A DNA stretch of 33,382 nucleotides, taken from Chloroflexota bacterium (GTDB taxonomy: Bacteria > Chloroflexota > Dehalococcoidia > JACQUA01). The notes below the pieces were generated by a model. The model did no database searches and was not told where the DNA came from. It saw nothing but the letters and a program-made list of their open reading frames with translations. The stretch is from contig JACQUA010000038.1 in the NCBI GenBank assembly GCA_016210565.1, positions 1 through 33,382 of the forward strand, read 5' to 3'. A program made the translations under genes and the position numbers. Below, in pieces: positions 1,581 to 25,851 of the stretch. Numbering within the stretch: the stretch's first letter is position 1; every line of letters begins with the position of its first letter.

Positions 1581-1638
1581 GTAGGGGCAGACCCATGTGT
1601 CTGCCCGCCCGCGGGCAAACACCCGGGTCCGCCCCTAC
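1581..1638. repeat. GTAG/CTAC-terminus palindromic repeat
   Basis: A 58-bp GC-rich element with inverted ends GTAGGGGC (1581-1588) and GCCCCTAC (1631-1638) and internal complementary GTCTGCCC/GGGC runs. Its right end overlaps the stop codon of the glutaredoxin-like gene: the TAG at 1637-1635 on the minus strand is part of the repeat terminus. It also occupies the region where the ribosome binding site of the next gene would normally lie. Confidence 0.75.
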
Positions 1639-1907
1639 AGAGGTCGGACTCCCGTGAGATATTCAAGGATATCCTCTTTGCGGATGGGCGCGCTGATAGT
1701 GAAAGAGCCGTCCAGGACCACTACCGGGATGGTATGCTTGTATTCCTCATATATGGCGAGGTCGGAGAGAATGTTTATCTCGTCGATTTCCATGGAGAAG
1801 TCACGTCCCAGTTCCTGGAGAACGTCCCTGGCTTCGTCGCACAAAGGACAGGCGGGTTTGGAAAAGAAGGTGACCGCATGCCTTCTGCCGCGTGCAGCCC
1901 GTTTCAA
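1635..1907 (-). CDS. Glutaredoxin-like thiol-disulfide protein (CPLC)
   Basis: A 90-residue thioredoxin-fold protein of the short glutaredoxin-like (DUF836) type. After a basic N-terminus it opens with the strand AVTFFSKPACPLC; CPLC is the redox-active CxxC, followed by helix DEARDVLQELG. The IPVVVLDG segment supplies the family's cis-Pro. There is no signal peptide, so it should be cytoplasmic. I place the start at TTG (1905-1907), only 5 nt after the lgt stop, with CCTCC/GGAG-like sequence too close to be decisive; longer readings run into lgt. It probably reduces disulfides or handles thiol-bound metal for its neighbours (inference). Its TAG stop lies inside the repeat at 1581-1638. Confidence 0.8.
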   Translation of the reverse strand: MKRAARGRRHAVTFFSKPACPLCDEARDVLQELGRDFSMEIDEINILSDLAIYEEYKHTIPVVVLDGSFTISAPIRKEDILEYLTGVRPL

Positions 1908-1912
1908 GGAGG

Positions 1913-2734
1913 CTATCGCCGGATATCCACGTTGACCGAAGCTTGCGCCCGTTTCGGCCGCCGGGACATCATGTAGAGGAGAATAATCGCGGAAGCGGCG
2001 ATGCCGGCCAGGGCCAGCAACTGGGCCTGCTGGAAGCCCATGAAGATGATATCTTCCTGCCGGAAGAAGGTCAGCAGGAGCCTTCCGGTGGAGTAGATTC
2101 CCATATAGGCGGGGAACAGCGCACCCTTCCACTGGGGCCTGGTCCTCAGTCGCCAGATGAAGGCCAGAGTGGCGAGGTTCCAGAGTTGCTCGTAAACCGG
2201 GTAGGGATGGGTGGGCACGCCGAAATACTGGGGTGGTATCATGGCCTCGGGGTTGACATAAATGAAGCCCCAGGGCAGAGAGGTGAGACCGCCATAGGCA
2301 TCGCCATTAACGATACAGGCAAAGCGCCCGATGAGTTGACCGACCAGCAGCGCCGGCGTCCCGATATCCAGGAAGGTACCGACATCGATCTTTTTCGATT
2401 TGACATAGATTAAGCACGCGACCATGCCCCCGGCTACCCCTCCCCAGATGGCCAGACCGCCCTGGTTGATGGATAAAATCAGGTGAGGGTTCTGAAGGTA
2501 GAAGTCGAGCTTGTCGATGACATGGAACAGGCGGGCGCCTACAATGCCGCCTACAATACCCCAGAGGGCGGCGTTCATGATATGGTCCTGCAGGATGCCG
2601 CGGCGTTTCCCCTCCTTGAGACCAAGCCACAGTCCGCCAATAATGGCGAGCATGACGAACACGCTGTACCATCGCAGCGAAAAAGGGCCCGCGTGGAAGA
2701 TCGTCGGGTTAATATTGATGGTTATACCGGACAT
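1913..2734 (-). CDS. lgt: Prolipoprotein diacylglyceryl transferase
   Basis: Transfers a diacylglyceryl group from phosphatidylglycerol to the lipobox Cys of prolipoproteins at the inner membrane, the first step of lipoprotein maturation. The 273-residue length fits the family. Visible hallmarks are an N-terminal FHAGPFSLRWYSV segment, GGLAIWGGVAGGMVAC, the Lgt signature region around residue 136 (IGRFACIVNGDAYGG, where most family members have GRxGNFxNGE) and HPYPVYEQLWN near residue 180. About seven hydrophobic helices are visible. ATG at 2732-2734 has GAGG 7 nt upstream. The gene is 5 nt from the glutaredoxin-like gene and follows a YHS gene. Lipobox proteins in this window (the oligopeptide-binding protein, the MacA-like adaptor, possibly the 497-1555 product) would be its substrates. 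Confidence 0.92.
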   Translation of the reverse strand: MSGITININPTIFHAGPFSLRWYSVFVMLAIIGGLWLGLKEGKRRGILQDHIMNAALWGIVGGIVGARLFHVIDKLDFYLQNPHLILSINQGGLAIWGGVAGGMVACLIYVKSKKIDVGTFLDIGTPALLVGQLIGRFACIVNGDAYGGLTSLPWGFIYVNPEAMIPPQYFGVPTHPYPVYEQLWNLATLAFIWRLRTRPQWKGALFPAYMGIYSTGRLLLTFFRQEDIIFMGFQQAQLLALAGIAASAIILLYMMSRRPKRAQASVNVDIRR

Positions 2735-2786
2735 ATTGATACCTCTTCAAAACCAAGGACTTGGTCGAGCGTCCGAGCCTCTGGGC

Positions 2787-3029
2787 CTAGTCGCACGTGT
2801 GGGCTTGCCTGTGGCCGCGCCGATCATCCGCGGGGTGTCCCTCTGCCTTCACCGACAGGAATTCCCCCGGGTTCGCCTCGAACGCCTTCAGGCACGAAGG
2901 GGCGCAGAAATGGTAGCGTTTACCTTCGTACTCCTTGGACAGGTTCGTGCGGGCCGCGTCTACGTCCATGCCACACACAGGGTCTTTTTCTATCCTGGTA
3001 CTGCGGGTAAACAGGTTCAGCCAGCTCAT
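2787..3029 (-). CDS. YHS-domain protein, second copy
   Basis: An 80-residue protein consisting mostly of a YHS domain (residues ~16-60): DPVCGMDVD, then GKRYHFCAPSCLKAFEANP. In this family the conserved Cys and the CxxxC pair are thought to bind metal, and YHS domains often accompany or are fused to copper/silver P-type ATPases. The N-terminus (MSWLNLFTR) is a short amphipathic stretch, and the C-terminus is His/Asp/Arg rich (DDRRGHRQAHTCD), a possible metal tail. ATG 3027-3029 is chosen, with GAGG 9 nt upstream; a TTG five codons earlier is an alternative. Its own promoter is visible at 3069-3097. About half the residues match the YHS copy at 3293-3556, so the pair probably arose by duplication. 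Confidence 0.85.
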   Translation of the reverse strand: MSWLNLFTRSTRIEKDPVCGMDVDAARTNLSKEYEGKRYHFCAPSCLKAFEANPGEFLSVKAEGHPADDRRGHRQAHTCD

Positions 3030-3068
3030 AGTCTCCAACCTCAAAGGTTTTTCGTTTACATACGATTT

Positions 3069-3097
3069 ATTGTCGTGTTTTCGATACGTTTTGTCAA
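3069..3097 (-). promoter_or_regulatory. Sigma-70-type promoter before YHS copy 2 and lgt
   Basis: On the minus strand TTGACA (3097-3092) is followed after exactly 17 bp by GACAAT (3074-3069). Transcription would begin near 3062, leaving a ~32-nt leader before the ATG at 3029. The region is locally AT-rich. This suggests the YHS-lgt-glutaredoxin part of the cluster can be transcribed separately from copA. Confidence 0.55.
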
Positions 3098-3148
3098 ATC
3101 GGGAGAAGCGGTGGTACTAAATACCGCATTAACTGATAAGGCGTATGT

Positions 3149-3252
3149 TCACCACGGAGACACAGAGAGCACGGAGACATCTGTCTAACCAACAAACCGG
3201 GGCCCAATTGTGTCATCTCATTCTCTCTGTGTTCTCCGTATCTCTGTGGTGA
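3149..3252. repeat. Family D inverted repeat (CACAGAG type)
   Basis: A 104-bp element whose ends form an imperfect ~30-bp inverted repeat: TTCACCACGGAGACACAGAG at the left and TATCTCTGTGGTGAA at the right. It fills much of the gap between the two YHS genes. A half copy (TTCACCACAGAGACACCGAG) lies at 33159-33189 just after the last gene of the window. Confidence 0.75.
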
Positions 3253-3292
3253 AAGCCCACTGTTTACGTCTCACTGCTATTAATGCTTCTCA

Positions 3293-3701: not shown

Positions 3702-3709
3702 GGTGGGCC

Positions 3710-3916: not shown

Positions 3917-3940
3917 GAAGGTCCTTCTATGCTTTCAACT

Positions 3941-4001
3941 GGTGGGTTCGCACAGCCACCCCACTCCGGTGCTTCCCCTCTGTGCTTAACCCACCCTACG
4001 G
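3941..4001. repeat. Family A repeat, half copy
   Basis: A 61-bp element whose reverse complement matches the left half of the 340-487 element almost base for base (from TAGGGTGGGTTAAGC through CGAACCCACCA). It lacks the second half, so it is a truncated or single-hairpin version. It sits in the 122-bp gap between copA and the small membrane protein gene. Confidence 0.7.
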
Positions 4002-4038: not shown

Positions 4039-6636
4039 TTAAACCCGGCTTGGTTCCTTTTGCATGACTGTGGGGCCGGGTTTCACCGGGGCCGGCGTGG
4101 GAGACCGGCGCACCGGAGGGACGTAGCCGCGCATGCGGAGGGTATTCAGGGTGACCGACAGCGAACTGGTGGCCATCAAAAGGGCGGCCAGTTCCGGGCT
4201 GACTATCTGGGCCGTGGCGGGGTAGAGAAGTCCGGCCCCGATGGGTATAGTGACCGTGTTATAGCCAAAGGCCCAGCCCAGGTTCTGCTTGATCAGCCGC
4301 AGGGTCTGACGCCCGATCTGTATGGCGGCCACTACGTCCAGCAGGTCATCTTTTATGAGAATGACATGGCCGGTCTCCTTGGCCACATCCGTGCCGGACC
4401 CGAGCGCGATGCCGGCGTCTGCCTGGGCGAGGGCCGGGGCATCGTTGATGCCGTCGCCGACCATGGCCACCTTGAAACCTTCGGCCTGGAGTTTCTTCAC
4501 TTCGTTGGCCTTATCTTCCGGCAACACCTCGGCCAGGACCCGATCAATGCCCACCTGGCGGGCAATGGCCTCAGCGGTCCGCTTATTGTCCCCGGTGATC
4601 ATGGCTACCTGCAGACCCATCTTGTGAAGCTCTGCCACGGCACGGGCTGAAGTCTCTTTGAGGGTGTCGGCGACGGCTACGATGCCTCCGGCCCGGCCGT
4701 CCAGGGCCACGAACATGACTGTTTTCCCTTCATGCTCAAGCCTTTCCGCCTGGGTTACCAGCCCGGCCAGCTCTATCTTTCTGTCAGCCATGAGTTTCCG
4801 GTTGCCGAGAAGAATACTCCGGCCATCGAACTGGCTTTCCACACCGTGGCCGGGAATGGCGGCGAAGGTCTGTGGTTCCTTCACCTCGAGGTCCCTGGCT
4901 GCCGCGCCGCGCACGATGGCCTCCCCCAGGGGGTGCTCGGAGCTTTTTTCGGCGATGGCGGCAAGTTGAAGCACCCTGTCCTCCTGGCCGGTTTCTAGGC
5001 TGAGGACATCGGTTACGGAAGGCTCACCCCTGGTGAGGGTGCCCGTCTTATCGAAGATGACCACCTGGACCCTGGCGGTGGTTTCCATGGCGTCGGCGCC
5101 CTTGAAGAGGATGCCGTATTCGGCCCCTTTGCCGCTGCCGGCCATTATGGCGCTGGGGGTGGCCAGCCCCACGGCGCACGGACAGGAGATGACAAGCACG
5201 GTTACGGATATGAGGAGGGAGAAGCCGAAGACGCCCAGTCCCGAAAGGAGGTAGGGAGTCAGGATCAGCCGGCTCTCGGGGACGAACCAGAGGTTGAAGC
5301 CGATGAAGAACCAGAAGAAGAAGACCAGGAGGGACAGAAGATGGACGCCGAGAATGAAATGACCAGCCACGCGGTCGGCGATCTTCTGGATGGGCGCCTT
5401 GGTGGTCTGGGCCTCTTCTACCAGCTTGATGATCTGGGCCAGGGCAGTATCCCGGCCGACCCTGGTGGCCTTGAATTTGAAGGCGCCTGTCTTGTTCATG
5501 GTGCCACCGATGACCTCGTCGCCGGCTCTTTTTTCGACCGGGATGCTCTCCCCGGTGATCATGGACTGGTCTACCGCCGAATAGCCTTCCAGCACCAGAC
5601 CGTCAACAGGTATGGCCTCCCCGGGTCGCACCAATATCAAATCGTCCACGACGACTTCTTCGGCGGGTACGTCGATTTCGGCTCCGTTGCGGACCACTCT
5701 GGCCCGCTTCGGCTGGAGTTTCATCAGGCGGCGGATAGCCTCCGAGGCCCGGCCCCTGGTGACTGCTTCAAGGTAGCGTCCGAGGATGATAAACGCGGTG
5801 AGGAGCGCCGCTGCCTCGTAGAAGGTAGCCTCTTTGCCCCCGAAGCCGGCCTCAGGCCAGAAGGTGTTGATCACGGCTATGAGATAGGCGGCCCCGATTC
5901 CGGTGGCATAGAGCAGGTTCATGTCGGTAATGCCGCGCTTGAGGCCGTTCCAGCTATAGACAAAGAACTGGCGCCCGGGGCCGAAGACGATGGGGGTGGT
6001 CAAGAAGAAAAGGAATACCTTGTTGTTCATCCAGGCCGGGATGATCTCCGGCAGAATCCAATAGGGCTGGAAGGTGCCCACCATGATGATCATTCCGACG
6101 GGCCAGGTGATAAGCATGTTGATGAGCTGCCGGCGTATCTCCTTTTGCCTGGCTTCCCGTTCCCGGTCGAGGAGTTCCTGGCCCTCCGCCCTTTCTGTAG
6201 CGCCGTAGCCCAGTTCTTCTATGGTCTTTCTTATCTGGGCGATGGAGGTGACTTCCGGGGTGTATTCGACTCGCCCCGACTCGAGAGACAGGTTTACGGT
6301 CACGCTCGCCACGCCGGGCAGTTCGCTGACCGCTTTCTGGATGTTAGCCACGCAGCTAGCGCAGGTCATCCCGGTGATGTGCAAGTTGGCTATATTCAAG
6401 ACCACGTCGTAGCCGATTTCGGAGACTGATTCGCGCATCGCGGCGATGGTAGTCTGCCGGGGATCGAACTCCACCGCTACCTTCCCGGTGGCCAGGTTTA
6501 CCACCACCCGCTTGACACCGGGCAACGACTGGATGGCCTCTTCCACGTGGGCGACGCAGGAGGCGCAGGTCATGCCGGAAACGCTGAGGGTTATTTTGTT
6601 TAAGTCCTGGTTTGTGCGCTTAGGTTCGTCTATCAT
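4039..6636 (-). CDS. copA: Copper-exporting P1B-type ATPase with two HMA domains
   Basis: An 865-residue Cu(I) efflux ATPase of the inner membrane. Two N-terminal heavy-metal-associated domains each carry GMTCASC (Cys24/27 and Cys92/95). Further motifs in order: TGES in the actuator domain, the intramembrane CPC site ([13 protein letters not shown], near residue 486), phosphorylation motif DKTGT with Asp529, EHPLGEAIV with the nucleotide-binding His-Pro, and [10 protein letters not shown]. The last helices contain [16 protein letters not shown] and [15 protein letters not shown], matching the Tyr-Asn and Met-Ser-Ser copper ligands of the P1B-1 (Cu+/Ag+) group. ATG at 6634-6636 has only a weak Shine-Dalgarno (CCAGG). 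The DUF2933-like gene lies just upstream, and YHS genes and a thiol protein lie downstream, consistent with copper detoxification. All catalytic motifs look intact. Confidence 0.95.
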
Positions 6637-10234: not shown

Positions 10235-10262
10235 CGTAGCACGGGCATCTCGCCCGTGTACC
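10235..10262. repeat. Short GTAG-terminus palindrome upstream of ccmH-like gene
   Basis: CCGTAGCACGGGC and GCCCGTGTACC surround a 5-nt ATCTC loop, giving a hairpin with an 8-bp stem. The left end has the same CCGTAG terminus as the stop-codon repeats elsewhere. It lies in the 195-bp gap between ccmF and the ccmH-like gene. Confidence 0.6.
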
Positions 10263-13513: not shown

Positions 13514-13532
13514 GGCCGTCGCAGATAATACG

Positions 13533-13700
13533 ATGCAAAACTTTGTTTTCCTGTTCTTTGCCTATACCCTGATAACCCTGGCCTTCCTGGCCCATACCTG
13601 GGGGCTCGCGCGGAAGCAGAAACGGCTCACCGAGGAGGTGGAGATGCTGAAGAAGGCACTGGAAGCCAAACAGCGGGAAACCCCGGGTCCCAAACTGTAG
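13533..13700 (+). CDS. ccmD: CcmD-like small membrane protein
   Basis: A 55-residue protein directly after ccmC, where ccmD usually lies. It has one membrane helix (NFVFLFFAYTLITLAFLAHTWGL) followed by a charged coiled-coil-like tail (KRLTEEVEMLKKALEAKQRE), the standard CcmD layout; CcmD is needed for release of heme-loaded CcmE from the CcmABC complex. No good Shine-Dalgarno precedes ATG 13533, so translation may be coupled to ccmC, 19 nt upstream. Its stop codon TAG (13698-13700) is the first part of a repeat terminus (CTGTAGCGAAAGGG). Assignment rests on position, size and topology, since the family has little sequence conservation. Confidence 0.8.
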   Translation: MQNFVFLFFAYTLITLAFLAHTWGLARKQKRLTEEVEMLKKALEAKQRETPGPKL

Positions 13701-13988
13701 CGAAAGGGCTTGTCCCTGTCGTGGTCCGAGCTGGTGTAGGGTGGGTGAAGCGAGCCGAGACTCCATCCCCGGTTGGTCAGGCCATCGCGGATAAGGCGTA
13801 CAAGCTGGCATCCCCTCATATCGCGAGCGTAACCCACCACCTCGGTGCGGGGACGCGGTGGGTTCCGCGCCTGAACCGGCGATGGCGGTCAAACGGGTGT
13901 GGCGCCGGGCGCTTCACCTACCCCATGTCTGACGACACCCACTCCGTTCCGAGAGTCCCGACATGTCGGGACAAGGGGTGTCGCTACG
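13697..13988. repeat. Compound repeat block between convergent ccmD and oppF-like genes
   Basis: This block fills the whole 283-bp gap. It starts with GTAGCGAAAGGG (including the ccmD stop) and ends with GGTGTCGCTACGG (including, on the minus strand, the stop of the oppF-like gene). A diverged family A copy occupies 13737-13925, with ends TAGGGTGGGTGAAGCG and CGCTTCACCTACCCC. A further palindrome CCCGACATGTCGGGA lies at 13958-13972. The block probably folds into several hairpins and could end both transcripts. No gene is seen inside. Confidence 0.75.
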
Positions 13989-15006: not shown

Positions 15007-15020
15007 CTCGTGTCATCACG

Positions 15021-15055
15021 CTCTCCTTAATCCTCTCCCATCAAGGGAGAGGAAA
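15021..15055. repeat. Family E palindrome (CTCTCCCATC..GGGAGAGG), copy 1
   Basis: CCTCTCCCATCAAGGGAGAGG forms a hairpin with an 8-bp stem, flanked by TTAAT and AAAC. It fills the short gap between the two ATPase genes, starting immediately after the OppD-type stop. Similar units lie at 27458-27535. Confidence 0.75.
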
Positions 15056-16063: not shown

Positions 16064-17129
16064 CTCTCAGGGCGTCTCCAAGAAAGTTGAAAGCCAGGAC
16101 CGTCAGTACCAGCATGATACCGGGCTCGACCGCGATCCACCATGCCGTATCCAGAGTAGCCTGCCCGGTCCGCAGAATGAGGCCCCAACTGGATACCGTG
16201 GGGTCGCCGAGGCCAATGAAGCTCAGAGCCGATTCCGCCAGGATGATGCCCGGAATCGACAGGGTGGCGATCACGATGATGGAGCTCAGAACGTTGGGAA
16301 TGAGGTGGCGGAAGACTATCCTGGCGTCGCTGGCCCCCAGCGCCCTGGCCGCCAGCACAAAGTCGCGGCTGCGGAGGGAAAGGGCCTCGCTGCGGACCAG
16401 CCTGTTGGTACCCGTCCAGCCCGTGAGCCCGATCATTATTACTATGAAAGTGAGGTTCGAGCCGAAGAGGTAGACGATAAGGACCAGCAGCAGAAAAAAG
16501 GGAAAGGTCATCATGACATCGGTGAACCGCTGGATGGCGTTATCCAACCAGCCGCCGAAGTAGGCCGAACTGACCCCCACGATCGTGCCGATCAGGATCG
16601 CCAGCCCGGTGGCCAGCAGCCCCACCTGGAGGGAAACCCGGGTCCCGGAGACGATCATGGCCAGCAGGTCACGGCCCTTGTCGTCAGTCCCCAGGGGGTG
16701 CTCCCAGCTACCATAGATAATCTCTGAACTGAGCTTCCCGGTGGCAGCGTCATAGCGGGACCGCTCAATGGAGAAGCCCACGGGAGGTGTGTTCTTGGCA
16801 TTGAAATCGACCCGGGTGGGGTCCTGGGTGAAGAAAGGGCCGATCAGCGCAACCAGAGCCAGAAGAATGATGAAGGCCAGACCCGGGATGGCAAGCCGGT
16901 TCTTCTTGGTCCGCGCCCAGTAGAAGCTGGTCAGTCTGCGCTGCAGATAAAGGGGAAGAAGGCCGAAAAAGACCGCCACCACCAGCAGGAACAGGTAAAA
17001 GTGGCTGGCAACGCTTTCCGGATTACCCAGCAGCCTCGAACTGACCAGGAAATGCCCGGTCAGGGCCAGCAGCGCTGCCAGCGTAAGGTGGTATTTCTTT
17101 CTAGCCAGGAATCCTATGAGTTTGTCCAT
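16035..17129 (-). CDS. Oligopeptide/dipeptide ABC permease (OppC/DppC type)
   Basis: Inner-membrane channel subunit of the importer. The core (residues ~130-364) has the family's EAA loop: ALGASDARIVFRHLIPNV, followed by AESALSFIGLGDPTVSSWG. Ahead of it is an extended N-terminus of about 100 residues with two extra hydrophobic helices (LTLAALLALTGHFLV and FYLFLLVVAVFFGLLPLYL) before the usual first helix (LAIPGLAFIILLALVALIGP). Most DppC proteins are ~300 residues, so this one is long. I use ATG 17127-17129; a TTG seven codons upstream at 17150 lies in a repeat. Neither has a clear Shine-Dalgarno. The gene overlaps the OppD-type ATPase by 29 nt. Confidence 0.9.
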   Translation of the reverse strand: MDKLIGFLARKKYHLTLAALLALTGHFLVSSRLLGNPESVASHFYLFLLVVAVFFGLLPLYLQRRLTSFYWARTKKNRLAIPGLAFIILLALVALIGPFFTQDPTRVDFNAKNTPPVGFSIERSRYDAATGKLSSEIIYGSWEHPLGTDDKGRDLLAMIVSGTRVSLQVGLLATGLAILIGTIVGVSSAYFGGWLDNAIQRFTDVMMTFPFFLLLVLIVYLFGSNLTFIVIMIGLTGWTGTNRLVRSEALSLRSRDFVLAARALGASDARIVFRHLIPNVLSSIIVIATLSIPGIILAESALSFIGLGDPTVSSWGLILRTGQATLDTAWWIAVEPGIMLVLTVLAFNFLGDALRDAFDPRSNL

Positions 17130-17138
17130 CTGTGTACT

Positions 17139-17316
17139 TGACCAAATCAAATATCAAAAACCAAAACGAAAAATGACAAATCAAAATGCAAAAATGAACC
17201 ACACGCGGCGCCGAGAGATTTTCGCTGGGCGGCTAACACCAGGTAGAAAGGGCGATTGGCCTGCGGGGACAGGCGATCATATCTTTTTATTTTGATTTTT
17301 GACCTTTGATCTTTCC
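17139..17316. repeat. AT-rich inverted repeat (ATCAAAAACC type) between permease genes
   Basis: The left arm (17139-17190) reads AAATCAAATATCAAAAACC and further A-rich bases; the right arm (17281-17316) reads TTTTTATTTTGATTTTTGACC. The arms are imperfect complements separated by ~90 bp of GC-rich sequence. It fills the 192-bp gap between the two permease genes and is strikingly AT-rich for this window. A short similar stretch (TTGATTTTTGGTCTTTGG) lies at 4019-4036. Confidence 0.65.
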
Positions 17317-17321
17317 AGGGC

Positions 17322-18281
17322 TTAATACCGGATCCGGGGATCGACCCAGGTGTATATTATGTCGGTCGCCAGGTTGGTCAGCAGGATGATGAAGGCCCCG
17401 ATCAGCGTGACGGCTACCACCACCGCGTAATCGTTGGCGAAAACGGCATTGAAGGAGACCTGTCCCAGCCCGGGTATGCCGAAGATGATTTCTGTGAAGT
17501 AGGCGCCTCCAAAGACGATGCTGCCAAGGTCGAACATCACGATGGTGATTATGGGGAGCATGGCGTTGCGGAAAACATGGCGGAAGAGGACTGTCTTTTC
17601 GTCCAGGCCCTTGGCCCGCGCGGTGCGAACAAACTCCTTGCGGAGGTTGTCGAGAATCGATGAACGGGTATACCGGCTGTAGCCGGCCACCATTCCGGTG
17701 CCCAGGGTGGCCACCGGCAGGATCAGCGCCTTGAGGTTGGCCAGGGAGAAGATCGGCAGGCCGGTATCGTAGTAGGTCTTGAACCAGGCGAGTTTGACCG
17801 AAAACAGGAGTATCAGCATCACCCCTAACCAGAACGTAGGCGTAGAAATCCCCACGAAGGAAAAAAAGGTGGCTATGTAGTCGATCTTGGTGTGCTGCCT
17901 CACGGCGGAGTATATCCCCAGGAGTATGCCGAGGGTGGAGGCAAAGAGGAAGCTCAGCAGAATCAACTGGAAAGAGTAGATCCAGTGTTTTTGCAGCAGC
18001 TTCGTCACCGGCATCGAGGTACTCAGGGACCATCCCCAGTTGCCCTGGACCAGGTTGCCGAGGTAGTCGAAGTACTGCTGGTGTAGAGGCTTGTCCAGGC
18101 CGTAGCGGGCTTCAATGGCGGCGGTCACCTGGTTTATGTCCTGCCCGCGAGCAGCAATGTTTGCGACGTACTTGTCTACGGGAGATCCCGGACTGATTCT
18201 TAGGAGTATGAACGTTATGGTCACTACTCCCCACGCGATGACGATAGTGTAAATTAGTCTGCGGATAATGTAAGGACCCAT
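17322..18281 (-). CDS. Oligopeptide/dipeptide ABC permease (OppB/DppB type)
   Basis: The second channel subunit, 319 residues, of standard DppB length. It opens MGPYIIRRLIYTIVIAWGVV, the typical first helix of the family, followed by the periplasmic loop with SPGSPVDKYV, and carries the EAA motif ARAKGLDEKTVLFRHVFRNA that contacts the ATPase. The tail reads TDIIYTWVDPRIRY, a family-typical ending. Six helices are visible. The upstream sequence has only a weak AGG. The gene lies between the binding-protein gene (234-bp gap, repeat-filled) and the OppC-type permease. Confidence 0.93.
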   Translation of the reverse strand: MGPYIIRRLIYTIVIAWGVVTITFILLRISPGSPVDKYVANIAARGQDINQVTAAIEARYGLDKPLHQQYFDYLGNLVQGNWGWSLSTSMPVTKLLQKHWIYSFQLILLSFLFASTLGILLGIYSAVRQHTKIDYIATFFSFVGISTPTFWLGVMLILLFSVKLAWFKTYYDTGLPIFSLANLKALILPVATLGTGMVAGYSRYTRSSILDNLRKEFVRTARAKGLDEKTVLFRHVFRNAMLPIITIVMFDLGSIVFGGAYFTEIIFGIPGLGQVSFNAVFANDYAVVVAVTLIGAFIILLTNLATDIIYTWVDPRIRY

Positions 18282-18389
18282 ACGCAGCCTGTCAATCTGG
18301 TACGCCGAAACAAGAAGGACGAATCAGTGATCAGAACCGGAATGTCGAGAGCAGTTCGTCAAATTCGCCATCAATCATTGCCAGGGAAC

Positions 18390-18508
18390 TGTCACCCTGG
18401 GCCGGAGCCCTGAGCGAAGCGAAGGTGCAGGCGAAGGGTCTTTCCTCCCCACCCGGAAAGCCTCTTCGACTGCGACTCGCTTGCGCTCGTCTTTGCTCAG
18501 AATGACAG
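18390..18508. repeat. Family B repeat, copy 3
   Basis: A ~119-bp element from TGTCACCCTGGG to GCTCAGAATGACA, with internal CCTGAGCGAAGCGAAGG and CTTCGACTGCGACTCGC. It fills most of the 234-bp gap between the binding-protein gene and the first permease gene and begins about 8 bp past the binding-protein stop. As a hairpin after the first cistron it could stabilise that mRNA segment and favour high binding-protein output, a known arrangement in ABC importer operons (inference). Confidence 0.8.
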
Positions 18509-18515
18509 CCCGGCC

Positions 18516-20231
18516 TCATTCGAAATGCCACAGGTAGTAATTATACCCCATGTTTATTCCAGGTTCGATCCCCTTGACTTTCTTCAGGAAACCGGTGTTG
18601 GCCTTATTATAGGCTATGAACTCCACCGGCTGTTCCTCAGAAAGCAGGCTTGCCAGCTCCTGGTAGATACGCTTGCGGTTTTCCCTTTCAAGGGCCTCCG
18701 CGGAACGGGTGCGGCGGAAAAGCTCGTCCACTTTCGGGTTGGAATAGCCGAAGAAATTCAGTCCTCCGTCGGTAACAAAGAACACGTCAGACCCGGAGGG
18801 AGCGATCGGGTTGGTGCCCAGCGCCATGATGATGAGGTCCCATTTTTCTTCACTGACGGCGTTCTTGCCATTGTTGAACTGCGGCTCCTGATTGGAGCCG
18901 GGAACCTTGTTGCGGACATACTTTCCCAGCAGCGTGGGCCACGGCACCAGCTTCACTTCGACCTCAATGCCGATACTGCCCAGCTCCTGTTTCATCAGCA
19001 GGGCCATGGACTCGGAAACGTTGCTGCCGGTCGTGGTGAACAGAGTGAACTTGAGCGGTTTCCCGTCTTTGTCTCTGGCCTCAAAGCCATCGCCCTTGCG
19101 GGCGCCGTAGCCGGCCTCGTACAGCATCTGGGTGGCCTTCGCCTTGTCGTAGAGCGCCCCCACACCGTATTTGTGGAGGCCTTCTTCCGAATACCACGGC
19201 GATGGGCTGGGAATGAAGCTGAAAGCCGGCTCTCCGAACCCTTCGAGGACCGATTCCACGAGCTGCGCCTTGCTGATGGCCATAGTCAGGGCCTGCCGCA
19301 CTTTCTTTTCCTTGAAGCCGGGCCATCCGTTATCTCTCAGGTTAAACAGCATCAGGGAGTAGCCGCTGGTCGGCGTGGTATAGACCTCGAGGTTGGGCAT
19401 CCGCTTGAATCTGGCCACGTTCTGGGGCTCGATTCCGGTGCTGGTGATGTCGCCGGCTTCCAGGGCTGCCTGGCGGGTAGCCGGCGTCCCGAAGAGTTTG
19501 ATTGTGTACTTCTCGAAGAAGGGCGCGCCCACGGGCTTGCCGAGATAGTAGTCCGGGTTGCGGGCGACAAGAAACTTGTCGTTGCGGATCCATTCCTCGA
19601 AACGGTAGGGACCCAGGTTGCCCGTAAAGCTGAGGTTATTGAATTCCTCCGCTTCGGTGAAGGCCTTGATATCGCCTTCGTACTTTACGGCGATGTGCTT
19701 GGGATAAGGGGTCAGGGAGTAGAGGTTATAGACGAACTCCGGATAAACGGTCTTCCTGGTGATGGTGAAGGTCATATCGTTGACCACTTTCGGTTCTACG
19801 TAGACGGTCTTGCTATCAACCGTCTCCTGCCAGTCGGACTTGTAGTTGTAGGTAAGCCAGTCCGAGAACATGAGGTTCTTGAGCGTGTACACGAAGTCCT
19901 CGGCGGTTACTTTTATACCACCTGTCCAGAAAAGGTCGTCCCTGATGGTGACGGTATATACCAGGCCGTCGGAGGATATTTCGACGTCTTTCGCCGCCAG
20001 ACGCAGCACCAGATTATAGTTGTTATCGAATCCTGCCAGAGAATCCGTGGTGTGGCCGGCGTAGGAAAACGAGGATGAGTCCGCCGCCAGGATGAAATTG
20101 AGGGTCTCGGCGTCTCCTCCTGATTGGCCCTCGACAAAGACGCCTCTGGCCTCCTGTTTGGGCGGAGAGCAGCCGGCAAGGAGCAAAGCCAGGACGATAA
20201 ACAGGGAAACTGCCCTCGAGATGGTTAGCAT
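18516..20231 (-). CDS. Peptide-binding lipoprotein of the ABC importer (SBP family 5)
   Basis: The 571-residue substrate-binding component. The N-terminus is a lipoprotein signal, with the lipobox in VLALLLAGCSPP (Cys near residue 21), so it should be anchored by lgt-dependent modification. The mature part follows the family 5 fold: ETLNFILAADSSS, LAAKDVEISSDGLVYTVTIR, then the typical DDLFWTGG..VTAEDFVYTLK stretch, GLGPYRFEEW-like NLGPYRFEEW, VRQALTMAISK and a C-terminal lobe. ATG 20229-20231 has AAGGA ~11 nt upstream, and TATAAT at 20264-20269 offers a promoter -10. Family members bind peptides, and some bind nickel or heme; the ligand cannot be called here. Confidence 0.92.
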   Translation of the reverse strand: MLTISRAVSLFIVLALLLAGCSPPKQEARGVFVEGQSGGDAETLNFILAADSSSFSYAGHTTDSLAGFDNNYNLVLRLAAKDVEISSDGLVYTVTIRDDLFWTGGIKVTAEDFVYTLKNLMFSDWLTYNYKSDWQETVDSKTVYVEPKVVNDMTFTITRKTVYPEFVYNLYSLTPYPKHIAVKYEGDIKAFTEAEEFNNLSFTGNLGPYRFEEWIRNDKFLVARNPDYYLGKPVGAPFFEKYTIKLFGTPATRQAALEAGDITSTGIEPQNVARFKRMPNLEVYTTPTSGYSLMLFNLRDNGWPGFKEKKVRQALTMAISKAQLVESVLEGFGEPAFSFIPSPSPWYSEEGLHKYGVGALYDKAKATQMLYEAGYGARKGDGFEARDKDGKPLKFTLFTTTGSNVSESMALLMKQELGSIGIEVEVKLVPWPTLLGKYVRNKVPGSNQEPQFNNGKNAVSEEKWDLIIMALGTNPIAPSGSDVFFVTDGGLNFFGYSNPKVDELFRRTRSAEALERENRKRIYQELASLLSEEQPVEFIAYNKANTGFLKKVKGIEPGINMGYNYYLWHFE

Positions 20232-20263
20232 TCTATTGACATCCTTTCCTTGACATAAGTGTC

Positions 20264-20269
20264 ATTATA
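20264..20269 (-). promoter_or_regulatory. -10 element before the importer operon
   Basis: A perfect TATAAT on the minus strand, ~33 bp upstream of the binding-protein start. I see no good -35 at the proper distance, so it may need an activator or be coincidental. Confidence 0.35.
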
Positions 20270-20321
20270 CACAATCTCTCCAGGTGATGCACGACAGCAG
20301 CCCGCGACGACACGTTTGCCT

Positions 20322-20427
20322 CCCCCGTAGCGACGCCCCTTGTCCTGACGCATCGCCCCGATGCATCCTCATCGTGTCCCACATCTCTGCTGGACACGAT
20401 ACACTTGTTGAAATGTGGGACATAAGG
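20322..20427. repeat. GTAG-terminus repeat and nested hairpins in the MFS-importer gap
   Basis: The gap between the MFS and binding-protein genes (20232-20570) holds no ORF. At 20322 a CCCGTAGCGACGCCCCTTGT unit matches the repeat after the oppF-like gene. Next come two overlapping inverted repeats: ATCGTGTCC/GGACACGAT (20371-20379, 20392-20400) and TGTCCCACAT/ATGTGGGACA (20375-20384, 20413-20422). They share bases, so only one hairpin can form at a time. Confidence 0.65.
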
Positions 20428-20470
20428 TGGCCAACGGATTAACTGCTCTAAGGCAACGTGGCGCACAACC

Positions 20471-20500
20471 GGTACCACAGGCACGGTGGCCTGTGGTACC
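20471..20500. repeat. Family C palindrome, symmetric copy
   Basis: A 30-bp palindrome starting GGTACCACAGGC and ending GCCTGTGGTACC around a 6-bp centre. It has GGTACC at both ends and looks like the complete symmetric form of the family. Confidence 0.8.
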
Positions 20501-20544
20501 GGGCAGCGGGCAGCGCCAGGTTAGGCGGGAATGACGGCGGTACG

Positions 20545-20573
20545 ACAGGGGTCCCGACGCGTCGGGATCGCTA
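20545..20573. repeat. GTAG-terminus repeat carrying the MFS stop codon
   Basis: Read on the minus strand it starts CCGTAGCGATCCCGACGCG and continues as a palindrome (TCCCGACGCGTCGGGA). The TAG in its terminus is the in-frame stop of the MFS gene. Confidence 0.75.
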
Positions 20574-21791
20574 CGGCGGCGTAACTGGCTTTTTGACGGC
20601 CAGGATTGAAAGGATTGAGAAGAGGAGAAATATGTCCACGGTGAGAAAGCCCGCCAGGTACGATCCGGTGAAGTCTCTGACCCAGCCGATAACCAAAGGA
20701 CCACCGAGTATAGCAACGTTCACCGTGGTGGAGAGGACGCCGAAAGCCAGGCCAAGTCTTCGCTCGTCCACCAGGAGGGCCGGCAGGGAGAAGATGGACG
20801 AAGGAATCAGAACAGGTCCGAGACCCGCGACGAACATGAGGGGGATCAGACGGTCCGGCGGCGCGACTAGAATGAGCAGGACGGCGGCCCCGGCGGCAAG
20901 ATTGCCCAGGCAGACGAAAAGCCGCTGCCGGGGAAGTTTCTGGACCAGCGTCCCCACGAGGGTACTGAGAATAAGCGGTCCCCACATGACATAGCTGGTG
21001 ACTCTTCCGGCTTGCTCCGGTGTAAAGGCCTCTTGCCGCACGAAGAAATCGGGAAGAAAGGTGACAAACGTGGCGAAGCCGGCGTTGAACCACATCCAGC
21101 TCATGGCCACCAGCCAGAGAGGCCAGCCGAGGGCCATCACATTGCGTGCTAACCCGTCTGCCGCGGGTGCCGGGGAACCCGGCGCACGGTGGCGGGAAGG
21201 TGTGGGTGGGGGAGAGTAGAAGATAAGGAACAGTACCAGGGCGATGAGGGACGTAGCCGTTCCCAGCCAGAAGGCAGCATGCCAGGAAAGCGCTCCGGTG
21301 AACAAGGGGATGATGTTGAAAGAGAGTATGCCGGCTACGGGGACGCCCGTGTTGTAGACCCCCATGGCGATGCTCAGCTCCCTGCCCAGGAACCACTGAG
21401 ACAGGAACTGGGGCAAGACAACAAGCAGCGTGATGGCGCCCAGACCTGCCGCCAACCTCCCGGCCAGCACGGGGAGGAACGAGGAGGACAGGGCAGAAAA
21501 CGCTGTTCCCAGCACCATCAATAGCAGGGAAAGCTGAGTCAGGTATTTGACGCCGTACCTGTCGCTCAGGGAACCGATGGGTATGGACATGAAGACGCCC
21601 GGAAGGGCGAAAATGCCCATTAACAGGCCGGCCTCGGCGTGGGAAATGCCGAGGTCATTGATTACCAGATTGAGTACAGGAGGAACAGACTGCATCATCA
21701 CGGCGAAAGCGAGTTGCGCCGAATAGACGATAGCCAGGATGAGCCAGCGGTTGGCGCGGCGGCCTCTGGCGGCCGGAGCATCGATGGTCAA
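20571..21791 (-). CDS. Major facilitator superfamily transporter
   Basis: A 406-residue secondary transporter of the inner membrane with about 12 predicted helices. The first helix is RRANRWLILAIVYSAQLAFA; the MFS motif between helices 2 and 3 is IPIGSLSDRYGVKYLTQ, and the C-terminal half repeats the pattern weakly. The substrate is unknown; the sequence resembles the broad nitrate/oxalate/cyanate-like or drug-efflux MFS group without a decisive motif. I start it at TTG (21789-21791), with AAAGGA 6-7 nt upstream; reading back to 21875 adds residues that look non-coding. The tail AVKKPVTPP ends in a TAG provided by a palindromic repeat. The gene precedes the importer on the same strand, but a 339-bp repeat-filled gap argues for separate transcription. 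Confidence 0.87.
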   Translation of the reverse strand: MTIDAPAARGRRANRWLILAIVYSAQLAFAVMMQSVPPVLNLVINDLGISHAEAGLLMGIFALPGVFMSIPIGSLSDRYGVKYLTQLSLLLMVLGTAFSALSSSFLPVLAGRLAAGLGAITLLVVLPQFLSQWFLGRELSIAMGVYNTGVPVAGILSFNIIPLFTGALSWHAAFWLGTATSLIALVLFLIFYSPPPTPSRHRAPGSPAPAADGLARNVMALGWPLWLVAMSWMWFNAGFATFVTFLPDFFVRQEAFTPEQAGRVTSYVMWGPLILSTLVGTLVQKLPRQRLFVCLGNLAAGAAVLLILVAPPDRLIPLMFVAGLGPVLIPSSIFSLPALLVDERRLGLAFGVLSTTVNVAILGGPLVIGWVRDFTGSYLAGFLTVDIFLLFSILSILAVKKPVTPP

Positions 21792-21962
21792 TGGGTTTCC
21801 TTTCAGGACCGGGAGGACCGGACGAGATTGGCCGGGTAGGTACCGAGAGAGAAGACCTGCCGGAGATCCCACCATTCGGGAGTTCCAGGATGATCAAGAT
21901 TAGCACGGCGGCGGCCATCTGGCAAGTTCAGGGGGCTTCTTTTCAAGGGGCTTCTGTCACCC

Positions 21963-22127
21963 GGTACCAGAGGCCTCCGTGCCTATGAGCAGTGGATCAC
22001 GAACAAGACAGACTCAATCTGTCAACGACGAGTAGCATCCCGCTGCCTCGTAGTCCAATGATGTCACTGGCATAATAGGGCGCCGTCTCTAAGTCCGGGG
22101 CCCACAAGCACGGTGGCCTGTGGTACC
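21963..22127. repeat. Region bounded by inverted family C repeats
   Basis: A family C unit at 21963-21989 (GGTACCAGAGGCCTCC...) and another at 22102-22127 (...GTGGCCTGTGGTACC) face each other, so the 165-bp segment has ~27-bp inverted ends finishing in GGTACC. The inside carries no ORF. A similar arrangement occurs at 28649-28833. Between the MFS and MacA-like genes (21792-22365) I otherwise see only a promoter-like box and a G-rich tract. Confidence 0.6.
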
Positions 22128-22226
22128 GGGCAGGTTGGTGGCCAAACTACTGCCACCTGGTCCGAAGGTTATCCAGATTTCATGTTTTCCAGGTACTCTC
22201 AGCTATCCAAATGCCCGACGAGGCGT

Positions 22227-22232
22227 TATAAT
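22227..22232 (+). promoter_or_regulatory. -10 element upstream of the MacA-like gene
   Basis: A perfect TATAAT in a GC-rich region, with no clear -35 (TATCCA at a roughly suitable distance is weak). It would give a ~125-nt leader that includes the G-rich tract 22254-22276. Confidence 0.35.
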
Positions 22233-22365
22233 TAAGTTAAACCCGGTCAGGCAGGGTGGGGGCCGGGGGGGGGGTGGACTGCCCGGGGACAAGGCGGAAA
22301 TACCGAACGGATCATAAGGATACTCAAAGCCGGTTCAGGCTACGATGAGCAAATACAGGAGAGCC

Positions 22366-24165
22366 ATGAAAAGAGAGCGATGGTTGGTCGTATTCAACCT
22401 GGTGGTTGTCGCTGCGGTGGTTTTCGGCGGTTGTCAGTTTCTTCCCTTCGGGGAGACCAGCGCGGCCGCGGTCCCCACCACCGTTGATGTCAAACGCGGC
22501 GATCTCGAGGTGGTGGCGACGGCCAGCGGAAGTCTGACGCTGCCGAAAGTGACCAAACTGGGTTTCAGCGGCGCCATTTCCGGGTCCCAGGCGGGGAACA
22601 CGATCCTGGCGGAGCTGAACGTGGCCGTGGGCAGCAGGGTCACCAAAGGGCAGGTCATTGCCCGCCTCGACACCTCCGGCCAGGAGCGCGACCTTCTGAG
22701 GTACCGTAACAATCTGGAGACGGCCCAGTTGAACCTGGACAAGGCGAAAGAGCCTTTGTACAGGCCGGAAGAAATAGCCAAAGCTGAGTCTGCTATTCCC
22801 ACAGGGAGGGCGAACTTGGAAGTGGCCAGGGAAGCCTTGAAAAAGGCCCGCGTCCCCTTTACAGAGAATGACTTTGCCATTGCAGAGGCCGGGGTTCGGA
22901 AAGCGGAGGCCGACCTGCGCAACGCCCGGACGGCCCTGGCTAGTGCCGAGAAGGACCTTGAGACTACTACTGTGCGGGACAACCGGACGATTCAGGACGC
23001 CGCCGATCAAATGGTAAAAATCCAGAGAAGCACTGAAGTGGGCAGGGCACTGGCCGGTACCACGACTGTGGGCACCGACTATGATATTCAGAAGGCGGGG
23101 GAAACTCTGGAGCTTGCCCGCAGGGATGCCGCCAGCCATCTGGCTGTGGGTCAGAACACGATAGCCAAGGCCAGGGATGGCGTGGCCTCCGCGGAGGTCG
23201 CCCTGGCGACGGCGCAGTTCAACTTGAATGACATGCTGTCCAAGAAGGACGGAGATAGCCTCGAGATAAAGCAAAGAGAGGCCTCCGTGATAAGCGCCGA
23301 GACCTCTCTTGCCAACGCGGAACAAACTCTATCCCTGATGAAGCGTCCGCCCGAAGCGATGGATATCAGGCTCAGGGAACTCCAGGTCGCCGCGGCGCAA
23401 CTGGCGCTGGATGACGCCCTTCTGCAACTGGAGAAATCGACCATCATCGCTCCATTCGATGGCGTCATCGGGGATTTCAAAGCCAAAGTCGGGGATACCA
23501 TCCAGCCCGGGTCTTTTTCGATTCCCCTGGTGGACCCGACACAGATCCGGGTGGATGCCTATATTGAAGAGTTCGATGTCATGAATATCAGGCCAGGGAT
23601 GCCGGCCACCGTTACGCTGGACGCGCTTCCGGGCCAGGTGCTGCCCAGCACCGTTGCTGCTATCTCGCCCCTCTCCACGGTGCAGCAGGGTGTGGTCAGA
23701 TATGCCATTACCATCAATGCCAGGATACCGGGGCAGGGAGAGGCTGTCCAGACATCGCAAGGCCGGCCCCGGCCGGGAGCGAGCGCGCCGTCTCCCAAGC
23801 CTGGTGCCGGGGGAGGGCAGAGGGGTAGTAGCAGTGGCGGCGGTGCCGCCAGACCAGCGGTGATTGAGTTGAAGGACGGCCTGTCGGCCACGGCCACCAT
23901 AGTGCTCAACAAGAGGGAGAACGTTTTGACGGTGCCCAACCGCGCCCTGGTTTTGCAGCGTGGGGAACAAAAAGTCCAGGTCCTGGTTAACGGCCAGGCT
24001 CAAGATAGAAAGGTGAGGACCGGTCTTTCCAACGACCAGGTGACCGAGATAATGGAAGGGATAGAGGAGGGTGAAAAAGTGATAATCCAGGCCCTGCCCG
24101 GTCGCCAGCAAAACGTGCCGAAGCCCGGGATGGGCGGCGGCCTGGGGATACCGGGACTAAGATAG
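22366..24165 (+). CDS. MacA/HlyD-family efflux adaptor lipoprotein
   Basis: A 599-residue periplasmic-adaptor-type protein. The N-terminus is a lipoprotein signal with lipobox VVFGGC. Layout: a first lipoyl/barrel-sandwich half (GDLEVVATASGSLTLPKVT...), a long alpha-helical hairpin (~residues 100-330, with repeated Ala/Glu/Lys coiled-coil sequence), the second lipoyl half (STIIAPFDGVIGDFKAKVGD), a beta-barrel domain, a Gly/Pro/Ser linker (~460-505) and a membrane-proximal domain ending LPGRQQNVPKPG. In this family the adaptor works with an ABC permease to export a substrate. ATG 22366 is preceded closely by AGGAG; ATG 22345 is an alternative. The hairpin is longer than in typical MacA, and the Gly-rich linker inside the beta-barrel region is unusual. 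The partner permease follows at 24466. Confidence 0.9.
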   Translation: MKRERWLVVFNLVVVAAVVFGGCQFLPFGETSAAAVPTTVDVKRGDLEVVATASGSLTLPKVTKLGFSGAISGSQAGNTILAELNVAVGSRVTKGQVIARLDTSGQERDLLRYRNNLETAQLNLDKAKEPLYRPEEIAKAESAIPTGRANLEVAREALKKARVPFTENDFAIAEAGVRKAEADLRNARTALASAEKDLETTTVRDNRTIQDAADQMVKIQRSTEVGRALAGTTTVGTDYDIQKAGETLELARRDAASHLAVGQNTIAKARDGVASAEVALATAQFNLNDMLSKKDGDSLEIKQREASVISAETSLANAEQTLSLMKRPPEAMDIRLRELQVAAAQLALDDALLQLEKSTIIAPFDGVIGDFKAKVGDTIQPGSFSIPLVDPTQIRVDAYIEEFDVMNIRPGMPATVTLDALPGQVLPSTVAAISPLSTVQQGVVRYAITINARIPGQGEAVQTSQGRPRPGASAPSPKPGAGGGQRGSSSGGGAARPAVIELKDGLSATATIVLNKRENVLTVPNRALVLQRGEQKVQVLVNGQAQDRKVRTGLSNDQVTEIMEGIEEGEKVIIQALPGRQQNVPKPGMGGGLGIPGLR

Positions 24166-24173
24166 CGAGAAAA

Positions 24174-24423
24174 TGTCATTCTGAGCTTCAGTAGGCAGCG
24201 GAAGGCTGCCGGACACATGGAATGACATCGATGTCATTGAAAGCGCACGCAAAGAATCTTTCGGGGAGAATACGAGACCGAAAGACCCTTCGACTTTGCT
24301 CAGGGTGACAACGTCATTGAAAGAGAAGACGAGCTTCAGTCCCGATAGAATCGGGACAGTCGAAGAATCTTTCGCTGGCCGGGCACCCCGGATGAAAGAC
24401 CCTTCGACAGTCTCAGGGTGACA
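24174..24423. repeat. Family B composite repeat, copy 4
   Basis: A ~250-bp block from TGTCATTCTGAGCTTCAG to CTCAGGGTGACA, filling most of the 300-bp gap between the MacA-like and MacB-like genes. Its first ~180 bp match the 7884-8140 copy closely, including the unit GGGGAGAATACGAGACCGAA; it then diverges, carrying an extra palindrome CCCGATAGAATCGGG. No ORF is inside. Confidence 0.85.
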
Positions 24424-24465
24424 TCTTCGTAAAAGGGTTTCATTGCCGACTGAGGTTGAATCGAC

Positions 24466-25713
24466 TTGAAGTATTTTGACAGCATTCTTCTGGCTTTGCA
24501 TGGAATAACCGCCAATAAACTGCGGTCGGCCTTGACCATGCTGGGAATCGTCATCGGCGTGGGGGCGGTGATCGCCCTCATGTCCATCGGGGAAGGCGCC
24601 CAGGCCCTCATAACGGACCGCATCCAGGGGATTGGGACCAACCTCATCATGGTGCTGCCCGGCCAGGCGACCACCCAGGGAGTGCGTGCCGGGGCCGGCA
24701 CGGCGGTGTTGATCCTTGACGATGCTCTGGCCTTGAATGATCCGATCCTGGCGCCTGATGTAACGCTCGTGGCGCCTTCGTCCCAGAGCGGTGCACCGAT
24801 TGTGGCCGGACCAATTAATACCCGCAGTACGGTGGTAGGTGTGACGCCGGAATACCAATTCGTCCGCAATTGGGAGGTCATGGAAGGCGATTTCGTCTTA
24901 CCCTCTCATGTTGACTCGCGGGCGCTGGTGGCCGTGCTCGGGAGCGACGTGGCTACGACACTGTTCGGCGGGATCAATCCGATAGACCAGTTCATCAAGA
25001 TACAGGGAATCCAGTTCAGGGTCATCGGTGTGCTACAGCGCCGGGGAGGCACCGGTTTCGGCCAGGCCGATGACGTGGTGATGATCCCCCTCACCACCCT
25101 CCAATCGCGTCTCCAGAGGCAGAGAGAGCGGGCGGGGGCCAACCGGATCGCTAATATTAATGTCATGGTGGCGGACCCTGAGAAGATCGAGGACGCTAAA
25201 GAACAGATCAGCGAAATACTGAGGGAGCGCCACCGCGTTTTGCCGGGGAGTGAAGATTTTCAGGTGGTGAGCCAGGAGGATATGCTGGCGACTCTCTCTT
25301 CGGTGACCATGGTCATGACGCTGTTTCTCGGGGCCATCGCCGGTATTTCCCTGCTGGTGGGCGGCATCGGCATCATGAATATCATGCTGGTCACGGTCAC
25401 CGAGCGCACCAGGGAGATCGGCATTCGCAAGGCGATCGGCGCCAAGAAGAAGGATATCTTACTTCAGTTCATAATAGAGTCGGCGACAATGAGCCTGACC
25501 GGGGCCATAGTCGGTTATTTCCTGGGGTTGGGCCTGTCCAATGTCTTGAACGGAGTGGAGCTGTCACCCGGCTCAACCCTGCGCACCGTGGTCACGCCGG
25601 GCATCAGCTTGCTGGCGCTGGGGGTGGCGGTGGGTATTGGGCTGTTCTTCGGCATCTATCCGGCCAAGAGAGCGGCCGATATGGACCCCATCCAGGCCCT
25701 GCACTACGACTGA
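24466..25713 (+). CDS. MacB-like ABC permease without fused ATPase
   Basis: A 415-residue FtsX/MacB-type permease: first helix near residues 20-40 (LTMLGIVIGVGAVIALMSIG), a large periplasmic MacB core domain (~45-280), then three C-terminal helices (MTLFLGAIAGISLLVGGIGI; SLTGAIVGYFLGLGLSNVL; ISLLALGVAVGIGLFFGIYP). The cytoplasmic loop TERTREIGIRKAIGAKKKD and tail AADMDPIQALHYD are classic family features. Translation is placed at TTG 24466 (GAGG 10 nt upstream). It pairs with the preceding MacA-like adaptor; such systems mechanotransmit ATP energy to export lipids, peptides or antibiotics. An ATPase of the LolD/MacB type is needed but is not fused and is not adjacent on either side. Confidence 0.92.
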   Translation: MKYFDSILLALHGITANKLRSALTMLGIVIGVGAVIALMSIGEGAQALITDRIQGIGTNLIMVLPGQATTQGVRAGAGTAVLILDDALALNDPILAPDVTLVAPSSQSGAPIVAGPINTRSTVVGVTPEYQFVRNWEVMEGDFVLPSHVDSRALVAVLGSDVATTLFGGINPIDQFIKIQGIQFRVIGVLQRRGGTGFGQADDVVMIPLTTLQSRLQRQRERAGANRIANINVMVADPEKIEDAKEQISEILRERHRVLPGSEDFQVVSQEDMLATLSSVTMVMTLFLGAIAGISLLVGGIGIMNIMLVTVTERTREIGIRKAIGAKKKDILLQFIIESATMSLTGAIVGYFLGLGLSNVLNGVELSPGSTLRTVVTPGISLLALGVAVGIGLFFGIYPAKRAADMDPIQALHYD

Positions 25714-25726
25714 CCCAAGCGGAACC

Positions 25727-25753
25727 GTCATTCCCGCGCAGGCGGGAATCCAC
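25727..25753. repeat. Short palindrome GTCATTCCCGC type
   Basis: GTCATTCCCGCGCAGGCGGG followed by AATCCAC; the arms TTCCCGC and GCGGGAA pair around GCAG. It lies just after the permease stop and could form a terminator-like hairpin, without a T-run. The same kind of motif is widespread in other bacterial genomes. Confidence 0.65.
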
Positions 25754-25777
25754 AGCCGTCGGGGGCACGGGACCCGC

Positions 25778-25851
25778 CGTAGCGACACCCCTTGCGGGTG
25801 TCGAAACCATCGCTGTCGACCGGGGACGACAGGGTCAATCCCTGTCGCTAC
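25778..25851. repeat. GTAG/CTAC-terminus repeat carrying the ubiD-like stop codon
   Basis: Ends GTAGCGAC (25779-25786) and GTCGCTAC (25844-25851) are inverted, with internal hairpins ACACCCCTTGCGGGTGT and GACAGGGTCAATCCCTGTC. The right terminus supplies the stop TAG of the ubiD-like gene on the minus strand. The permease and the ubiD-like gene converge on this 134-bp gap. Confidence 0.8.

Follow-up and report, generated by a model that had tools for sequence, protein, structure and literature searches.

Five genes in a 33,382-nt stretch of DNA (the window; contig JACQUA010000038.1) from the 6.5-Mb draft genome of a Chloroflexota bacterium (GCA_016210565.1) end at a TAG that belongs to the GTAG terminus of a hairpin repeat. 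These repeats are GTAG-tagged repetitive extragenic palindromic (REP) elements, an element of known kind, present partly as inverted pairs (REP doublets forming hairpins, REPINs). The five stops are the TAG inside the conserved GTAG tag of such elements, which were likely spread by REP-associated tyrosine transposases (RAYTs) and probably became stop codons on landing GTAG-first at gene 3' ends, their own stop being brought along. The stop-supplying layout itself is not new. In their 2013 paper on GTAG-tagged REPs, Di Nocera, De Gregorio and Rocco state that the termini "often provide" a TAG stop to flanking open reading frames (ORFs) (PMC3733652), and the initial annotation of the window was therefore wrong in supposing that no system of this layout had been described. 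What is added here is evidence on the mechanism.

REP heads were grouped by ten patterns (R1-R10). The coordinates and letters of all five stops given in the initial annotation were confirmed; its description of the elements as palindromic repeats held for the two that are two-ended (GTAG...CTAC at 1581-1638 and 25779-25851) and failed for the other three, which are one-ended. The elements and the genes that they end are as follows.

1581..1638, no strand assigned: REPIN, R3, GTAGGGGC family, GTAG...CTAC; RNA fold -52.2 kcal/mol, z -10.8.
1635-2132, minus strand: glutaredoxin-like gene; its stop is the minus-strand TAG 1635-1637 of the R3 REPIN above.
13697..13721, plus strand: single REP, R1, GTAGCGA family; TAG 13698-13700 is the stop of the small ORF 13533-13700.
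13929..13987, minus strand: REP-like stem with R1 head, far end approximate; TAG 13984-13986 is the stop of the oppF-like ABC ATPase gene.
20550..20574, minus strand: single REP, R10, GTAGCGATCCCG; TAG 20571-20573 is the stop of the MFS gene.
25779..25851, no strand assigned: REPIN of two R1 REPs with heads at 25779 (plus) and 25851 (minus); TAG 25848-25850 is the stop of the ubiD-like gene.

Pfam backed four of the five gene identities (glutaredoxin-like, oppF-like ABC ATPase, MFS, and UbiD). The small ORF 13533-13700 had no match in Pfam or NCBIfam, and ccmD is a name given to it in the initial annotation only. GTAG stood clearly at the 5' foot of a short stem-loop in four of the five elements, those at 13697-13721 and 20550-20574 being single GTAG-plus-hairpin units, and the oppF element was a larger compound stem in which a stretch of about 59 nt up to 13987 folds as one. 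Three of the five folded better than shuffled sequences (z -2.8 to -10.8), and two did not (z -1.3 at 13697 and -0.3 at 20540-20574). The motif GTAGsG alone was not enriched in the window (15 + 10 observed against 13.0 + 9.9 expected).

The wider genome was sampled at two nested sizes, a first sample of 652 kb and an enlarged one of 1,437,482 bases (1.44 Mb). The sample was non-random: 20 of the 80 stretches were low-numbered contigs chosen regardless of matches, and the remaining 60 came from contigs with earlier REP, UbiD or RAYT matches. Genes were called not with a standard annotator but with a home-made fourth-order Markov caller, which marked 76% of the first sample as coding, and the counts are approximate. 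The TAG of a REP head was the stop of a called gene for 34 of 220 heads in the 652-kb sample and for 56 of 470 in the 1.44-Mb sample, where 56 of the 1,055 called genes ended in this way and 144 of 6,975 non-REP GTAGs acted as a stop. The initial annotation had proposed counting such stops against shuffled positions. Carried out on the 1.44-Mb sample, circular shifts of the heads gave a mean of 0.17 stops and a maximum of 2 in 1,000 rounds, and chance overlap was rejected as the source of the 56. REP-supplied stops are thus frequent in this genome, and the window is richer than average in them (5 of its 24 called genes). By family in the 1.44-Mb sample, stop-supplying heads numbered 13/90 for R1, 6/67 for R2, 16/74 for R3, 7/47 for R4, 0/12 for R5, 1/27 for R6, 3/20 for R7, 5/114 for R8, 2/10 for R9, and 3/9 for R10. 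Three paralogues (L052 1066-3342 and 9141-11363; L189 10798-13008) all ended at a REP TAG, a few residues apart; they were either copied along with the repeat or mark a hotspot.

Two natural frame experiments show how elements of this kind can become established at the ends of genes, the stop being brought along. Copies of GTAGGGTGGGTTAAG carry TAG in one frame and, ten bases on, TAA in another. Among 74 copies, one gene ended at the TAG and six at the internal TAA, and one gene ran 83 nt past a copy in the stop-less frame. Insertion that seeks TAG cannot account for the TAA users. Arrays of at least three GTAGNNN units, (GTAGCGA/GTAGTGA/GTAGCCA)n, were found at 50 places in the 1.44-Mb sample (for example, stretches L178 and L044) and offer TAG in all three frames; one simulated sequence contained none. 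Genes at these arrays stopped at +0, +7, and +14 in 4, 3, and 4 cases, respectively, and once at +11, and 19 further stops sat 3-55 nt upstream of the arrays. When the TAA copies were set aside, 13 stops lay at +1 to +200 of a REP head, and only 6 of these came from frames lacking an early stop. Additionally, CC preceded GTAG in 14 of 34 gene-ending REPs and 81 of 186 other REPs, against 4 of 53 non-REP GTAG stops (652-kb sample), as if CCGTAG arrives with the element. The numbers in the frame tests and the CC count are small, and all depend on the Markov gene caller. A gap in stops at -5 to -1 was considered as a signal and rejected as mostly trivial: no stop codon fits at -1 or -2, one at -3 to -5 would be at odds with the frequent CC, and the larger sample did show a single stop at -5. 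Since stops were used in any frame in which they lie, these results argue against insertion targeted at pre-existing TAGs. There is a good case that a gene can run into a repeat in any frame and terminate at a stop that the repeat itself supplies; of the two alternatives raised in the initial annotation, a repeat that brings its own stop is therefore favoured and insertion at stop codons disfavoured.

The assignment to GTAG-tagged REPs rests on the enrichment of GTAG followed by a hairpin and on the families found, which fit the available description of those elements (PMC3733652). In the 652-kb sample, 163 of 3,427 GTAGs (4.8%) were immediately followed by a hairpin, about three times the frequency of most control tetranucleotides (1.0-2.7% for 16 of 17). 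The exceptional control was GTAC (4.0%), probably because of another repeat family starting with GGTACC. Families among the hits, a list that includes many chance hits, included GTAGCGACACCC-cttgc-GGGTGTCG, GTAGCGGCACGCTGCCGCGTGCC, GTAGGGGCGAACC...GTTCGCCC, GTAGCCGCAGGTCTTTAGCCTGCGG, and GTAGGGTGGGTTAAGC...GAACCCACC. The ten pattern-defined families amounted to 470 heads in 1,437,482 bases. Stop-site heads excluded, 49 of the 470 lay inside called genes (18 sense, 31 antisense), and the elements are thus mainly extragenic; 127 had an inverted partner within 170 nt, and the others were single or had a partner missed by the patterns. In PMC3733652, which gives 24 families, the elements likewise have GTAG at one terminus of a short stem-loop and occur as singles and dimers near gene 3' ends, and Chloroflexi are among the reported hosts.

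The REPs were likely spread by RAYT transposases of the same genome; that these moved them is suggested by the presence and surroundings of the genes. The RAYT family model NF047646 gave five matches above cut-off and four weaker ones in the genome, and two genes were confirmed by direct scan. Among seven Y1/RAYT loci, one had five GTAGGGTGGG heads, one had seven GTAGCCGCA-type heads, two had a single head each, and a fifth had a GTAGGGGC-type hairpin cluster; family heads adjoined four of the seven. The RAYT gene on C52 itself terminates at the TAG of an adjoining REP. Inverted REP pairs, RAYT genes with adjoining REPs, and REPs very near or directly after RAYT stops are also features of the REPIN/RAYT systems as described in PMC2817692, PMC3116915, and PMC8266576. 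In contrast to those systems, several RAYTs and REP families occur here in one draft genome. On C172 (about 5972-6376, L009), a RAYT domain lay within a 1,112-residue open frame whose upstream part resembled a DNA methylase by eye, possibly through fusion or an assembly effect.

In the proposed course of events, a REP would land GTAG-first at a gene 3' end, and its TAG would probably become the stop codon of the gene, since the element carries a stop in one frame. Landings in a stop-less frame would be purged by selection, and the old stop would be cut off or decay. In some genes, such as oppF, the TAG of the repeat lies beyond the ancestral end, so that loss of the old stop and a switch to this TAG also play a part. 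The logic of survival of stop-bearing repeats at coding ends has been stated for the TAACTGA repeats of Beggiatoaceae (PMC4679880).

The comparison of orthologues called for in the initial annotation was made at the protein level, with close homologues of UbiD, oppF, and an MmgE/PrpD protein on L033. Names carried by some close homologues (Chloroflexi, Dehalococcoidia) agree with an origin in Chloroflexota. UbiD had 450 residues against 451 in 36 of 58 close homologues, the commonest length, and its alignment was one column short; a difference of -50 from distant paralogues was overruled by these closer homologues. The MmgE/PrpD protein ended within about 4 residues of most aligned homologues. 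Of 57 REP-ended proteins with 100 aa or more, 24 had usable paralogues in the same genome. The length difference had a median of 0 (quartiles -3.5 and 1) for 18 TAG-ended proteins, of which 8 ended early, 7 late, and 3 level, and a median of +7 for 6 TAA-ended proteins; control proteins gave a median of 0 (quartiles -1 and 1; 336/915). By these comparisons, the repeats sit at the native protein end, with departures in either direction. Orthologues of CbiD from named genomes, with a best-segment identity of at most 51%, were too distant to be compared codon by codon.

Several results weigh against the idea that REPs landed at gene ends and brought the stop. Joining the flanks in silico (10 of 56 cases had no definable far end) gave no excess of in-frame stops just past the element: the cases with a stop within 5 codons of the join never exceeded 3 of 14 for paired elements or 6 of 32 for single ones, whichever boundary was tried, near the one in five that we estimate for random sequence. 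Either the old stops decayed or were lost, or the element borders are wrong. The oppF protein was longer than its homologues, running 12 residues past the end of the closest one (81% identical). The seven Y1/RAYT loci had only 14 pattern heads nearby, where the sample rate predicts 7.4, and two of the loci lacked any REP head within about 1.5 kb. The GTAGGGGC pattern occurred in 18 of 119 genomes of the class, that of the window included. At 60 loci drawn from 11 further genomes of the class, stops were supplied by only 4 of 126 heads (3.2%) and by 31 of 1,529 other GTAGs (2.0%); an earlier, overlapping set of 28 loci gave 2 of 31 heads and 7 of 421 other GTAGs. Class-wide generality of REP-supplied stops is weak, and the effect is far smaller than in the genome of the window. 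In 150 kb of E. coli K-12, inspected by eye with feature tables, none of 15 REPs supplied an annotated stop, and this genome was set aside as a source of empty sites for comparison. Finally, lone REPs that lay 1-60 nt past a stop without supplying it were GTAG-first in 35 of 38 gene-REP pairs, and heads 4-60 nt past stops had their TAG in frame only 35 times out of 116, roughly the third that chance would give. With such a GTAG-first bias, selection for an own stop is not the whole story.

This orientation preference was confined to the vicinity of stops. The lone-REP count is one of gene-REP pairs, and heads that may have a degenerate partner are excluded from it (38 to 4 with those included). 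GTAG-first and reverse lone REPs numbered 23:0 when overlapping stops, 24:1 within 30 nt, 11:2 at 31-60 nt, and 8:11 (parity) at 61-120 nt. A count of the first REP after a gene as GTAG-first, 135 to 4 within 30 nt, was discarded as inflated, since a REPIN faces outward at either end. Tandem gene pairs, stop-supplying heads included, gave a ratio of 40:1 at distances up to 30 nt and of 9:20 at more than 100 nt, and this split argues against a replication-strand effect. The GTAGNNN arrays showed the same strand preference, with GTAG on the coding strand after genes in 31 cases against 2, and at the 60 loci of other genomes the first REP after a gene was GTAG-first in 12 against 3 cases within 30 nt, overlaps included. 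Placement of REPs at gene 3' ends may be strand-locked even where the TAG is unused or out of frame, an idea that we regard as tentative. If it is true, it would point to strand-specific insertion into the coding strand at the end of transcription or to a GUAG-first RNA element required at mRNA ends, and the stop codons would be a by-product. A literature search, with many subscription papers beyond its reach, yielded no paper on a frame test or an orientation preference of this kind. The accessible account in PMC3733652 differs from ours in having neither, and the strong preference near stops was not found discussed in the REP literature as far as it could be consulted.

Three other explanations were weighed. 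Loss of a native stop after REPs had collected downstream of genes, the REP TAG being next in frame, would explain why oppF extends 13 residues past a CHLY-type motif that lies 0-8 residues from the C-terminus in 43 homologues, and why TAA-ended proteins are longer. However, UbiD is one residue short, and the 18 TAG-ended proteins are split between early, late, and level ends; this explanation is unlikely. Insertion of the element at an existing G-TAG stop, older than the repeat, agrees with ends at or near the native C-terminus (UbiD at -1 residue; paralogue median 0) and with the lack of a leftover old stop past the element, but it conflicts with the use of the internal TAA (6 of 74 GTAGGGTGGGTTAAG copies), with the near-even offsets in the GTAG arrays (4, 3, 4), with the CC that distinguishes these GTAGs from other GTAG stops, and with oppF terminating 12 residues late. 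We consider it quite unlikely.

The hairpin might also be retained for an effect on the transcript, which it would terminate or protect, or on translation, which it would slow at the stop; the overlap with TAG would then be a by-product. A slowing of translation has been reported for E. coli REPs that lie no more than 15 nt from a stop (PMC12306157), and both the GTAG-first lone REPs up to 60 nt past stops and the three window elements that out-fold shuffles would fit such a role. On the other hand, two of the five elements fold like shuffles, and the rarity of stop-less frames is left unexplained. The suggestion in the initial annotation that the hairpins act as transcript ends also found no support: 12 terminator-like sites were predicted in 13,400-27,000, none of them, and hence no T-run terminator, at the four repeats there (1581-1638 lay outside the scan). 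A role of the hairpin as the reason for the layout is very unlikely. An Rfam search of the whole window at the gathering score returned no match to a known structured RNA. The reading in which the REP brings its own stop links a seemingly novel layout to a known element, and it warns annotators that C-termini may be misplaced by between one and about twelve residues at the start of a REP.

The GTAGNNN arrays resemble the TAACTGA heptads of Beggiatoaceae (PMC4679880) in being seven-base direct repeats with stops in three frames, and where TAACTGA repeats overlap an ORF in the orientation that offers stops, they do so at its end. The two differ in that TAACTGA repeats mostly face a downstream start codon, whereas the GTAGNNN arrays tend to follow genes and in 17 of 50 cases precede a REP head within 30 nt.

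The window holds further REP-type elements.

339..488, no strand assigned: REPIN-like inverted pair of R8 (GTAGGGTGGGTTAAG) heads, away from any called stop.
3961..3999, minus strand: R8 head (GTAGGGTGGGTTAAGC) starting at 3999, extent approximate.
10236..10258, plus strand: R7-type REP head GTAGCACGGGC.
13736..13775, plus strand: R8 head GTAGGGTGGGTGAAG, adjoining the 13697 REP, extent approximate.
20327..20365, plus strand: R1 head GTAGCGACGCCCCTTG, extent approximate.

Another dispersed palindrome, GGTACCACAGGC..., formed an inverted pair at 28648-28834 of the window, and its 12-mers occurred up to 44 times in the 652-kb sample; those of a dispersed repeat, TGTCATTCTGAGCGAAGCG..., occurred up to 59 times. 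UbiD-family decarboxylases were exceptionally numerous in this genome, with 55 matches at E <= 0.001 (query, window 25848-27200), and a genome of the same family (G001) had 34. Many MmgE/PrpD paralogues of 56-68% identity (L033, L024, L032, and others) were also seen, apparently within this same genome.

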